Positions 8,961 through 36,602 of a stretch of DNA of 64,000 bases are shown here, piece by piece. Origin of the DNA: Chitinophagales bacterium (GTDB lineage: Bacteria > Bacteroidota > Bacteroidia > Chitinophagales > CAIODY01); assembly GCA_026461075.1 (NCBI GenBank), contig JAPJNH010000164.1, positions 1 through 64,000 of the forward strand, in the 5' to 3' direction. Each line of letters starts with the position of its first letter. Position 1 is the first letter of the stretch. The notes under the pieces were generated by a model, which did no database searches, had not been told where the DNA came from, and was given only the letters and a program-made list of their open reading frames with translations. A program made the position numbers and the translations under genes.

Positions 8961-9031
8961 GGTCGGATGGCCGAGTGGCTAGGCAGAGCTCTGCAAAAGC
9001 TTCTACAGCGGTTCGAATCCGCTTTCGACCT
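8961..9031 (+). tRNA. tRNA-Cys (anticodon GCA)
   Basis: A full cloverleaf can be drawn. The acceptor GGTCGGA pairs with TTCGACC (one G-U), the anticodon loop is CTGCAAA with GCA at 8993-8995, and the T arm is GCGG-TTCGAAT-CCGC. The discriminator base is T, as expected for tRNA-Cys. CCA is not encoded. Confidence 0.95.
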
Positions 9032-9032
9032 C

Positions 9033-9062
9033 AAAAACCCCTGATAATCTCAGGGGTTTTTT
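9033..9062 (+). terminator. Intrinsic terminator after tRNA-Cys
   Basis: Stem AAAAACCCCTGA / TCAGGGGTTTTT with a 5-nt TAATC loop, ending in a T run, directly downstream of the tRNA. Confidence 0.85.
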
Positions 9063-9073
9063 CGTTTTATATA

Positions 9074-9103
9074 TTCTGTTCTGGTTCGTGTCTCACGAAC
9101 CAG
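9074..9103. repeat. Perfect 10-bp hairpin, copy 1 of a dispersed motif
   Basis: CTGGTTCGTG-TCT-CACGAACCAG forms a perfect 10-bp stem with a 3-nt loop. The left part, TTCTGTTCTGGTTCGT, recurs with one change at 9257-9272. It lies past the tRNA terminator, so it is probably a small repeat element rather than a terminator. Confidence 0.6.
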
Positions 9104-9139
9104 TAATTAATATACTTCCCAACAACATTACTTCAGCCA

Positions 9140-9237
9140 ATCGCATATCGCGATTCGTATATCGCAAATCGAGATTCGCGTATCGCGTATTGCAAATTGC
9201 GATTCGCGTATTGCAAATTGAAATTCGCATATCGCGA
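9140..9237. repeat. Tandem heptanucleotide array, 14 units
   Basis: Exactly 98 nt that divide without gaps into 14 heptamers of related sequence, roughly (A/T)T(C/T)G(C/A)(A/G/T)(A/T): for example ATCGCGA, TTCGCGT, ATTGCAA, ATCGCAT. Several units recur identically. On the minus strand the array stays open and reads as a pseudo-heptad peptide, because 3 units make 21 nt. No cas genes, spacers or coding context are present. Confidence 0.8.
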
Positions 9238-9256
9238 TTTTTTCATTAAAACAACC

Positions 9257-9288
9257 TTCTGTCCTGGTTCGTCCCAAATACTCGGGAC
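9257..9288. repeat. Hairpin motif, copy 2
   Basis: TTCTGTCCTGGTTCGT matches 9074-9089 at 15 of 16 positions, here followed by a GTCCC...GGGAC inverted repeat (8-nt loop). A further CAGGAC at 9321-9326 can pair with GTCCTG at 9261-9266. Confidence 0.45.
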
Positions 9289-9335
9289 ATCATTAATCAT
9301 TAATAACCGTCCACTTTTTTCAGGACATGACATTT

Positions 9336-9377
9336 TTAATCCTTAATTATTCATTCTTCACTTTTCACTTTTCACGA
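9336..9377. repeat. Second-family heptamer array, 6 units
   Basis: TTAATCC, TTAATTA, TTCATTC, TTCACTT, TTCACTT, TTCACGA in unbroken succession. The 16-mer TTTTTAATCCTTAATT at 9333-9348 recurs exactly at 33100-33115. The intervening stretch also has CATTAAT twice in tandem (9291-9304). Confidence 0.65.
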
Positions 9378-9380
9378 TTT

Positions 9381-9416
9381 ATAGATTTCATCTATACATT
9401 TATAGAAAATATCGTT
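9381..9416 (+). promoter_or_regulatory. OxyR-type operator upstream of katG
   Basis: The pattern is ATAG-N7-CTAT-N6-ATAG-N7-CGTT, close to the OxyR tetrad consensus ATAG-N7-CTAT-N7-ATAG-N7-CTAT. It ends 22 nt before the katG -7 box, so it abuts the -33 region as expected for an activator site. The same arrangement, also with N6 in the middle, stands before oxyR at 46216-46251. The shared half includes CTATA, TATAGA and AATATC in register. Confidence 0.7.
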
Positions 9417-9427
9417 TTTATCAATAA

Positions 9428-11737
<2,310 letters not shown>

Positions 11738-32982: not shown

Positions 32983-33095
32983 TTTTCATATTCTTTTCGG
33001 AGTTTTATATATAAAAATATAATAAGTTGTCCTTTTATACAACTTTCGTTTGTTAATTCTGAATAGAATAACACGCTTTCCTAATAAAAAGTATT

Positions 33096-33123
33096 TTAAT
33101 TTTTAATCCTTAATTCTTAATTC
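33096..33123. repeat. Heptamer array, 4 units (same family as 9336-9377)
   Basis: TTAATTT, TTAATCC, TTAATTC, TTAATTC in unbroken register. It shares a 16-nt exact match with the intergenic array upstream of katG. Confidence 0.55.
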
Positions 33124-36100
33124 CTATTGCCCTCCCGCACGAATTGCCTTGAAGTAGTCTTCTACAAGCTGCTTATAGTAGGGCGAAAATTCAGGAGGGA
33201 CTGTTTGATAGCCTTCCATCATCGCTTGACGTTTCTTAATATAATCGAGGACGGCAGAAGGCAAAGCTGGCGTCTGATCTTGTGCGGCATGACTTTCGCG
33301 CTTTTGATCTTTGTCTTGCTCACGACTTGCGTCTTCCACTTCTAACAAACGAGTTTCAATTTGTTTTTGACGGAGCAGCATTTCATTCGTCAGTCGCTTA
33401 TTCACTAACTGCGTTTCATTTAAATCCATCTGCTTCAACAACTGGTCGAGGTTACCATACTGTTGCTTACCGTCTTTATTGTACTGCTGATTAAATTCTT
33501 GTAAAGCCTTTCTCAACGCTGCTTGTTTCGCCGCAAGCTGTGCAAATTCTTTACTGCTTAACTGCGACTGTCCATGCTTTTGTTGTCCCTCTTGCTGCCC
33601 TTGTCCGCCACTACCACCAGCCGCGCCTTGCTTCTGCGCACCAGGTTTTTGACCAGGTTGTTCTCCAGGTTTTGGTTGCCCTTGTTTGCCCATCATCTTT
33701 TCCAAAGCATCGCGCATTTCTTTCGACATTTGATTGATGTCCTTCAATTGTTGACCAGCAGATTTCTTTCCACTCTTTCCTTGTCCGCTTCCGCCAGGTT
33801 TATTACAAGAACCAGATCCTGGCTTGCTTTGCTGGCTTTGTTGTTGCTGCATATTCTGCATCGTCTCATTCAACATCAAGGCTAAGTTATTTGCGCCGGT
33901 CATTATGTATTGTTGCTCCGATTGCGCAGCGCCGCTATTACGCTGTTCTAGATAATCCATCGCACGACTTTGATGCTTGTTTACCTCCGTCATCTGCTCC
34001 GTTACATATTTCTTCAATTGGAAGACCGTCTTCCCTAAAGAGTATAAAGAGTCTTCAATCAACTTCGCATCATCCTTTAGCTTGCGTTGTTGCTGCATGG
34101 CCTGTAAATAGGCAGGCGTATTAATGCTCATCGTGGAAAGCTGCTTCATTAAAGCTTCTTGCTCAAAAGAGAACTGTAATAAATTTTCGAGCAACTGACG
34201 GATTGCGCGTAAATCCATCTCCAACTGCTCTGATTCAGCAGATTGCGACTTCTCCTCCATTTTTTGCTGCATCTTCTTCATCTTCTGTGCGGCTGAGGAT
34301 TGCTTTTTAGATGCGCTACTGTTATTCTTTTGTTGTAATTGATCGGAAGCGTCTTGTTGATCTTGTTGCGCATCTTCCTGCTCCGCCTCTGTCTTAGCCA
34401 AATCCATTTTATTATTCAGCTGTTCATCCTGCTTTTTCAGGCTCTCCATTTGCTTCATCCACTCCTTATACTCCTTATTCAACTGATCTTGTTGTTGCTT
34501 TAAATCGGCACTCTTTTCTTGCGGAGCGAGTTCGGATTGCTTAGCCAACTCCGCTTGTTTGTCGGCCATCTCTTTCAACTTTTCCATAGCCATCTGCATC
34601 TGTTGATCGAGCTGCATCTGCTTGTACAAAGACATCATACGATCCATCTGCTTTTGCTGTTGATCGCCTTCTTGTTGCTTCTCTTTTAATTCGCGCACGA
34701 CATCATCCTTCGTCATTTGATCCATTTTATCAAGCAGCTGCTGCATATCTTTTGCTTGATTTTCATTTTTCATATCCTTCATCATCTCCTGCAAGGCTTC
34801 TAATTTTTCTTTCATCTCAGGAGTTAATGCATTCAAATCATCGAGTCGTGTTTTGTTTTCTTCCAAAGCCTTTTGCATCGCTGAAAGCTTGTCCTCTAAG
34901 GCCTTTTGTTGTTTTTGCAAATTCTCTAAAGCTTTCTGATCTTCGAAAGAAAGATTTTTCTTCTGCAATAATTTCTCTTGCATATTCTTAATCTGATCAC
35001 GGATTGCCTTAGCGTCTTTCAAGGCTTTCTCTAGATCTTTCTGCAAATTTTTGTTCGCATCCGCAATTGCTTTTTCCGTTTCATCAGAGGAGGCAAGCTT
35101 CAACTGCTTAAGCTCCGAACGTGCTGATTTAGGACCATGTATGCCGTCGTTATCCCAAGTGATCACATAATAATCTACGCGATCTCCGGGTGATAAGCCC
35201 AGTGTATTAAAGTCGAATGCGTATTGGAAACTAATCTTGTTTTTACCACTGTATGGAATATTGATATAAGTCCATGCTTCATTCTTAGCGCCGCTCGCAA
35301 GGTGTAGTTGATAGGCTAATTGTAATTTAGAAATTCCATAATCGTCTTCAGATTTACCATAGAAATAACGCTGACGTTCCTTGATTGAATCGCTCAGCTC
35401 TTCACATTGTAGAACAGGATATTGATCTGATTCGACATTCATCAAATAACTTACGCTATCGGCACGTAACATATCCTGATTAGCTGTGAACAGCTGATAT
35501 GCACCCGCTTTACGGGCGATGGTACTTACTTTGAAATCATTGGATTCATTAGCTAACAAACGGCTAGAGTCAGGTAGAATCAATTGTAATTGAGAGGTAT
35601 TCTGCGTATTGAATTTCCAGGTGATACGCGTTCCTTCTGGGATATTGAGATCTCCGGTTTGGCGTAATACTTCAGGGGCACGACCTGTATAAGCAGGATA
35701 TTGCAAATCGACTTCGAAGCCGATGATTTGTGGACGAAGTACTACTTGTACCTCATACATTTTGGAATGAAACTCTCCTGCTTCAAAACGGAAAGAAACT
35801 GCTTTTTGTAAATTGCTTAAAGTATAGCTAAAGCGATTCACGCTTTCCTTCTTCATCTTATACAACTGTCCGTCCCAATTGATTTCCACTTCGTCAGGAA
35901 AAGCTTCTCCGCTTAATTCAACTTCAATCTTTAAATCATTCTGCTGCAAGACGCGCAGGTTTTTGGTGAGTAGATTAAAATGAAAAGGCGACTCTTTCTC
36001 GAACTCAACAGCTGGTTGAAATAAGCGCGCGCTAGGCTTTAGCAAAGCGTTTGGGGCAAACACTAATAAAAGCACCAAAGCCAAAACCGGGACGGCTGCA

Positions 36101-36585
36101 TATGGAAGGTATTTCTTGTTGGTCTTTAAATCCACCGCGTTCACAAATTCGAAAGGCTGTATCGAAGTCGTTTTCTGCTCGATACTTGCCAATAGCAATT
36201 CCATCGAAATCAAACTGGAGGTGCTTTTTTCGGCGTCTTGCTTTAGTTGTAATACCGTGAGTAGTTTATCTTGAATAGGCTCGAAATGTCTTCCGATGAT
36301 GCGTGCTGCTTCTTCATACGACATGCCTTTCGCCAAACCGAAATAACCGAATACAGGACGGAATAAAAATTGAAAAAAAGTATACAGCCACAAGCCGATC
36401 CAAACTGCTAATAATAGCCAACGGATGTTAGAAGAAAAATAGAACTGATGTTCTAAGAAATTCATCCCCAAAAAGCTGATTAGAAGGAGCGCGACAGATA
36501 ATAGCAGGCCTCGTATAATCTGGTTGAGATAATACTTCCTTACAAAGGCGTCGAGTTTCTTTATGAGTAGATCAGCCTGGTTCAT
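33124..36585 (-). CDS. DUF4175 family membrane/coiled-coil protein
   Basis: An 1153-residue protein of a Bacteroidota-typical uncharacterised family. Three hydrophobic segments (about 25-45, 52-75 and 150-170) precede an extracytoplasmic beta-rich region (about 190-500). A very long Gln/Lys/Glu/Met-rich coiled coil follows (about 510-900: KKNLSFEDQKALENLQKQQK and similar), then a GQGQQEGQQ-type low-complexity stretch and a charged tail. The track start at 36597 is a TTG; ATG at 36585 (MNQADLLIKKLD) is preferred. Function is unknown; it may link membrane and periplasm. Many opposite-strand ORFs inside it are shadows of its biased codons. Confidence 0.85.
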   Translation of the reverse strand: MNQADLLIKKLDAFVRKYYLNQIIRGLLLSVALLLISFLGMNFLEHQFYFSSNIRWLLLAVWIGLWLYTFFQFLFRPVFGYFGLAKGMSYEEAARIIGRHFEPIQDKLLTVLQLKQDAEKSTSSLISMELLLASIEQKTTSIQPFEFVNAVDLKTNKKYLPYAAVPVLALVLLLVFAPNALLKPSARLFQPAVEFEKESPFHFNLLTKNLRVLQQNDLKIEVELSGEAFPDEVEINWDGQLYKMKKESVNRFSYTLSNLQKAVSFRFEAGEFHSKMYEVQVVLRPQIIGFEVDLQYPAYTGRAPEVLRQTGDLNIPEGTRITWKFNTQNTSQLQLILPDSSRLLANESNDFKVSTIARKAGAYQLFTANQDMLRADSVSYLMNVESDQYPVLQCEELSDSIKERQRYFYGKSEDDYGISKLQLAYQLHLASGAKNEAWTYINIPYSGKNKISFQYAFDFNTLGLSPGDRVDYYVITWDNDGIHGPKSARSELKQLKLASSDETEKAIADANKNLQKDLEKALKDAKAIRDQIKNMQEKLLQKKNLSFEDQKALENLQKQQKALEDKLSAMQKALEENKTRLDDLNALTPEMKEKLEALQEMMKDMKNENQAKDMQQLLDKMDQMTKDDVVRELKEKQQEGDQQQKQMDRMMSLYKQMQLDQQMQMAMEKLKEMADKQAELAKQSELAPQEKSADLKQQQDQLNKEYKEWMKQMESLKKQDEQLNNKMDLAKTEAEQEDAQQDQQDASDQLQQKNNSSASKKQSSAAQKMKKMQQKMEEKSQSAESEQLEMDLRAIRQLLENLLQFSFEQEALMKQLSTMSINTPAYLQAMQQQRKLKDDAKLIEDSLYSLGKTVFQLKKYVTEQMTEVNKHQSRAMDYLEQRNSGAAQSEQQYIMTGANNLALMLNETMQNMQQQQSQQSKPGSGSCNKPGGSGQGKSGKKSAGQQLKDINQMSKEMRDALEKMMGKQGQPKPGEQPGQKPGAQKQGAAGGSGGQGQQEGQQKHGQSQLSSKEFAQLAAKQAALRKALQEFNQQYNKDGKQQYGNLDQLLKQMDLNETQLVNKRLTNEMLLRQKQIETRLLEVEDASREQDKDQKRESHAAQDQTPALPSAVLDYIKKRQAMMEGYQTVPPEFSPYYKQLVEDYFKAIRAGGQ

Positions 36586-36594
36586 AGCCTTTTC

Positions 36595-36602
36595 CAAAGA
36601 TG
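36595..36602 (-). promoter_or_regulatory. -7-like box CATCTTTG of DUF4175 gene
   Basis: Seven of eight matches to TAnnTTTG, 9 nt from the preferred ATG; it overlaps the TTG that the track used as start, arguing against that start. Confidence 0.3.

Follow-up and report, generated by a model that had tools for sequence, protein, structure and literature searches.

The 98 bases at positions 9140–9237 of the stretch of DNA analysed here (64,000 nucleotides, hereafter the window) lie between a tRNA-Cys gene and katG and can be read entirely as heptanucleotides. The array is made of 14 consecutive in-phase units with zero insertions (units 1–7: ATCGCAT ATCGCGA TTCGTAT ATCGCAA ATCGAGA TTCGCGT ATCGCGT; units 8–14: ATTGCAA ATTGCGA TTCGCGT ATTGCAA ATTGAAA TTCGCAT ATCGCGA). 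All 14 units carry (A/T)T(C/T)G at positions 1–4, which corresponds to the pattern WTYGNNN. Positions 5–7 are mostly C, R and W, giving a consensus that is mostly WTYGCRW. Fifty dinucleotide-shuffled versions of the window gave longest WTYG runs of 2 or 3 units, and the best run on the reverse strand was 3 units. The lag-7 self-identity of the array (57/91) is the highest of all 98-base stretches in the window (mean 22.9, sd 4.5). Together, these results confirm that the array is real and its coordinates exact, as originally predicted from the letters. The (A/T)T(C/T)G consensus proposed at that time holds for the first four positions of every unit, but the last three are not free. Neighbouring units average only 63% identity and the array is a degenerate one. 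The coordinates of all features are summarized in Table 1.

Table 1. Features of the window and right ends of the IS3-family element (G000, genome of the window; G002, genome of the same genus).
Feature	Position	Strand	Evidence or remark
tRNA-Cys (GCA)	8961..9032	+	ARAGORN; Rfam RF00005
Strong intrinsic terminator after tRNA-Cys	9033..9061	+	12-pair stem and T tail
Palindrome CTGGTTCGTGTCTCACGAACCAG	9081..9103	.	core at two other sampled sites of own genome
Heptamer array, 14 units WTYGNNN, consensus WTYGCRW	9140..9237	.	run of 14 vs ≤3 in shuffles
First 49-bp half, 7 units: 21-bp sub-repeats 9140–9160 and 9161–9181, plus one unit	9140..9188	.	unit-lag identities
Second 49-bp half: sub-repeats 9189–9209 and 9210–9230, plus one unit	9189..9237	.	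unit-lag identities
Palindrome GTCCCAAATACTCGGGAC	9271..9288	.	near-identical copy adjoins array in contig C44
Right-end remnant of IS3-family element, inverted repeat ...CCACTTTTTTCAGGACATGACA	9294..9332	+	~39 bp kept in window
Second heptamer array, NNNTTMA units	9333..9376	.	orthologous to array of different units in G002
Conserved block upstream of katG, putative katG control region	9379..9446	+	G000/G002 alignment
katG, catalase-peroxidase	9473..11737	+	PF00141
Third period-7 array, TTAATYY units	33085..33136	.	period-7 scan
Right ends of IS3-family element	window 9294–9332; G000 C6:1842, C22:90, C119:28863; G002 C12, C13, C14, C20, C21, C36		

The array is located in the longest gene-free gap of the window (9033–9472). 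This gap had been described as the only long non-coding one; it is indeed the longest, but the third array of Table 1 shows that heptamers are also carried elsewhere. That third array sits at a short gap beside the gene 33124–36597. On the tRNA-Cys side, folB lies upstream of the tRNA gene, and the array follows the tRNA terminator. On the other side, 235 bp separate its end from the katG start, and a putative katG promoter box is found ~200 bp downstream. The array seems to occupy a spacer that is not transcribed. The box (9439–9446, TAnnTTTG-like) ends the conserved block before katG, and from general knowledge of Bacteroidota promoters we take it to be the katG promoter. The conserved block may be an operator bound by an oxidative-stress regulator, and some other relatives have similar motifs ahead of katG. 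The predicted identity of katG was borne out by its protein family match, and a scan of viral contigs for katG gave no find. The Rfam search around the array returned the tRNA as sole match, and the Pfam search gave no match for the array. A hairpin or structured strand was rejected, as the fold is not notable (z-score −0.98). Short dispersed palindromes of the TTCGTG..CACGAA and CCCRARTAYTCGGGA types adjoin heptamer arrays in the own genome and in G002 (window 9081–9103 and 9271–9288; L088, 6246; L126, 10580; L127, 3527).

Two open frames with a 7-residue period run through the array, one of 53 aa on the + strand (9088–9249) and one of 66 aa on the − strand (9133–9333). They could in principle encode an expressed repeat peptide. 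Neither frame has a Pfam match, the peptide would be absent in G002, and a period-7 frame is inevitable from a 7-nt repeat that lacks in-frame stops. We regard such a peptide as extremely improbable, in agreement with the original view that the frame is a false one.

The units of the array are not equally related to each other. Identities at lags of 1 to 7 units are 63%, 60%, 77%, 70%, 62%, 59% and 80%. Shuffling the unit order reproduces the high values at lag 3 (59/77 positions) and lag 7 (39/49 positions) together in 0.05% of cases, although the best lag taken singly is only marginal (p = 0.05). The array is therefore composed of two 49-bp halves, each containing two 21-bp triplets and one unit. 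That 14 equals 2 × 7 probably reflects stepwise duplication, and a duplicated 7-unit block is the simplest account. We hold with moderate confidence that the array is a neutral product of slippage or unequal exchange. The array would have lengthened through successive tandem duplications in increments of one or a few heptamers, by replication slippage or unequal exchange, in the order 7, 21, 49 and 98 bases with point substitutions between rounds. It would then have persisted where it is harmless, that is, neutral in spacer DNA. The 7/21/49 hierarchy and the position between the tRNA-Cys terminator and the katG control block both argue for neutral growth.

The same site was compared in G002, whose katG is 91% identical to that of the window. 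One G002 contig, ending with folB and tRNA-Cys, runs into the left end of an IS3-family element, and another, starting at the right end of this element, runs into katG. These contig ends and a common CT at the junction suggest that the order in G002 is tRNA-Cys, IS3, katG. No WTYGCRW array was present in G002 at this site, nor at the two sister sites rplY|purH and meaB. The difference between the two genomes at the main site may correspond either to a gain here or to a loss in G002. Other relatives have different neighbours at the katG-array site. The second array of the window and its G002 ortholog could be aligned in phase; they differ by ~2 units and show substitutions at variable columns. 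The absence at three sites in G002 and the ~2-unit difference of the orthologous arrays are further points for neutral growth, as is the period-7 excess described below.

The original prediction had named absence of the array elsewhere in the genome and in relatives as a ground for refutation. Neither was observed. The WTYGCRW class occupies four unlinked loci of the own genome (the window and contigs C72, C146 and C44), and WTYG heptamer arrays occur in 30 of 61 genomes (own and relatives, one genome per species). The C72 array lies between two convergent terminators (rplY|purH), and all three sister arrays flank genes unrelated to katG or tRNA-Cys. Apart from heptamer and palindrome sequence, the flanks of the four loci have in common only matches of ~15 nt or less. 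Close to its end, the C146 array (positions 882–958; L003) switches orientation, so that its two parts make up an inverted pair. AATTAAR and ATTCATT types are commoner than WTYGCRW arrays in the own genome, of which ~430 kb of stretches were surveyed, many at contig starts and possibly repeat-enriched, with some contigs masked. These commoner arrays, the duplicated 7-unit block, the second array and the IS3 remnant had all been missed originally.

Degenerate arrays of each period were counted across 144 kb of intergenic sequence sampled from the own genome and relatives, with intergenic regions delimited by simple ORF calling. Period 7 gave 43 arrays vs 0.1 in shuffles. There were 18 arrays at period 14, 9 at period 8, 3 at period 6 and 0–2 at other non-harmonic periods, for a shuffle expectation of ~0.1–0.8 per period. 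In the sampled genomes, period-7 arrays were found in convergent and divergent spacers in a ratio of 10:4, vs 55:107 for the gaps themselves (Fisher p = 0.008), and no strand bias relative to genes was detected. This distribution is expected if the arrays are tolerated rather than functional. Repeated protein-binding sites that affect katG, tRNA-Cys or chromosome structure are an alternative compatible with the strict phase, the partly constant block and the stress gene downstream, and variable columns do cluster across heptamer arrays overall (p = 0.005). However, the array 9140–9237 itself has no such clustering, it is lacking beside katG and tRNA-Cys in G002, its sister loci adjoin unrelated genes, and arrays avoid divergent promoter spacers without strand bias. 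A cis-acting role is thus unlikely, and as far as the evidence goes the array does not regulate katG.

Heptamer arrays of this general kind are spread over bacteria. Among the matches listed in a GTDB scan for five exact WTYGCRW units were Chloroflexota, Planctomycetota, spirochaetes, cyanobacteria and others. Degenerate ATCGCNN arrays of Chloroflexota (Thermoflexus and others; L168, L184, L218, L235, L245) are strikingly like the array of the window. The comparison with cyanobacterial genomes made originally is valid for the general kind, short tandem heptamers in non-coding DNA, but the host is Bacteroidota-like: a T9SS sorting domain ends one of its proteins.

Arrays of one genome tend to be built from the same heptamer. 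The consensus unit was identical in 43 of 305 within-genome pairs of arrays vs 5 of 1399 between-genome pairs (label permutation p < 0.001, with and without the own genome). Heptamers flanking the arrays showed no such within-genome effect, and the sharing exceeds base composition. Independent local slippage does not predict common units at unlinked loci, and slippage by itself gives no reason for a step of 7; both points stand against purely neutral growth. Alternatively, the array could belong to a dispersed, genome-specific family whose units are spread by a trans-acting process, either recombination/template-switch copying or a dedicated enzyme, and lengthened by local duplication. This proposal is consistent with units that are common within genomes and different between relatives beyond base composition. 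It also agrees with the four unlinked WTYGCRW loci of the own genome, the 5-unit WTYG pattern being missing from both same-genus genomes, and with genus g2, where arrays are found not only in spacers but also within real genes (nadE, ileS and others). On the other hand, unit order is not common to the four own-genome loci beyond chance (p 0.16–0.93), which led us to reject the copying of whole multi-unit blocks among them. Moreover, neither the reverse transcriptase PF00078 nor the REP-type Y1 transposase PF01797 was found in the own genome (99.7% complete, some contigs masked). The two obvious enzymes are not needed, and telomerase-like or retron-type writing by a reverse transcriptase and REP/RAYT mobility were rejected. 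Dispersal in trans is in our view rather unlikely as the main origin, yet it is a serious rival and could act jointly with local growth.

In genus g2, arrays are seen within long open frames of conserved genes (L376–L378, nadE; L382, ileS-like; L383–L384; L385), the gene names being read off the translations instead of assigned by a family search. They encode stretches such as NEQLSI and LQIDICKLKIEQ in apparently variable loops, and several of these loci hold both array orientations as an inverted pair.

The remnant of an IS3-family element starts 57 bp downstream of the array, and the second array of the window lies directly beyond it. The element has OrfA/OrfB with an IS3 transposase and TG...CA inverted repeats, which characterize this family; its G002 copy matches NF033516 (267 bits) and has the ends TGTAACGTCCTG.../...CAGGACAAGACA. 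Eleven right ends were identified in G000 and G002, one of which is cut by a contig end. Among the 10 testable ones, the two located at katG (G000 and G002) represent one insertion. A period-7 array was found beyond 9 of these 10 right ends (each p < 0.03; p = 0.16 for the tenth). In the 70 bp beyond the 10 ends the lag-7 score averages 22.1 of 28 vs 10.2 in intergenic controls, and lags 5, 6, 8 and 9 stay close to control values. In the clear cases, it is the T/C-rich array strand that reads outward from the right end. Copies with an identical end sequence face different heptamers, as seen in G002, and the idea that the array is carried as IS cargo was rejected. In this one genus, the arrays therefore look like a target, not a cargo, of the IS3-family element.

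Taken alone, the array 9140–9237 is of limited consequence, and further work is best directed at the genome-specific units and the IS association. The wider result makes it possible to test what favours a step of 7 nt in bacterial non-coding tandem repeats and whether arrays spread between loci. The IS3 association offers a natural marker of array age and makes the arrays candidates for a new kind of transposition target. Surveys of the Mrazek type reportedly count exact repeats. Such surveys largely overlook degenerate arrays, whose abundance is probably underestimated as a result; these arrays can also mislead gene callers. A bolder and doubtful proposal is that each genome of this order has its own heptamer dictionary, spread in trans in 7-nt steps, with degenerate units tolerated and intrusion into genes possible, the arrays serving as landing sites for the IS3-family element. 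In a limited search of the literature, neither order-wide within-genome sharing of degenerate heptamers nor an IS3 preference for arrays was found described.

Several known systems were compared with the array. Contiguous 7-nt units without spacers rule out a CRISPR array (repeats of ~21–50 nt with unique spacers). A REP/BIME element, with palindromic units and a Y1/RAYT transposase, was rejected for lack of PF01797 and because the array is not itself palindromic, its palindromes lying nearby. A phase-variation repeat, whose unit number switches expression from inside a promoter core or coding frame, was rejected because the array is ~200 bp upstream of the putative promoter box and outside supported genes. 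For plasmid iterons, defined as 17–22-bp direct repeats beside a rep gene, the observations are 21-bp sub-repeats within the array and folB, tRNA-Cys and katG as its neighbours. The best correspondence is with the heptanucleotide tandem repeats of prokaryotes (LSSR/STRR). The tandem length is beyond chance (14 vs ≤3 units), arrays are intergenic at several loci (4 of the same class and many of other units), and relatives vary (main array present or absent, second array different by ~2 units). Since neighbouring units are only 63% identical, the array falls outside a strict exact-repeat definition and fits only the broad, degenerate one.

In many bacteria, long simple repeats are most often heptanucleotides, for which polymerase slippage has been proposed (Mrazek et al. 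2007, as cited in PMC4679880 and PMC4692102). As far as these citing papers present them, those repeats resemble our arrays in their unit of 7, which many genomes contain in excess compared with other unit lengths; the units described here, however, are degenerate, and a count restricted to exact repeats would miss most of them. TAACTGA direct repeats of Beggiatoaceae, cyanobacteria and some Bacteroidetes (MacGregor 2015, PMC4679880) are likewise heptamers at many intergenic loci, mixed with other heptamers in some genomes. They differ in the heptamer itself and in their position, most being within several nt of a start codon in the main genome, whereas the array ends 235 bp before katG. The GGGAATC and GGGGA(C/T)T repeats of Xanthomonas and Nostoc (Rehm et al. 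2015, PMC4692102) also form arrays that recur between the same genes across related species and vary in length and sequence, but they are G-rich with quadruplex potential, and the units of the array 9140–9237 have no G-tracts. Insertion sequences landing specifically in repetitive extragenic sequence are known from REP elements (Tobes and Pareja 2006, PMC1525189); here, in contrast, the repeats are heptamer arrays, and the IS3-family element next to them has its right end turned towards the array. Prokaryotic heptanucleotide repeats are thus already known, and the array 9140–9237 adds to that kind.
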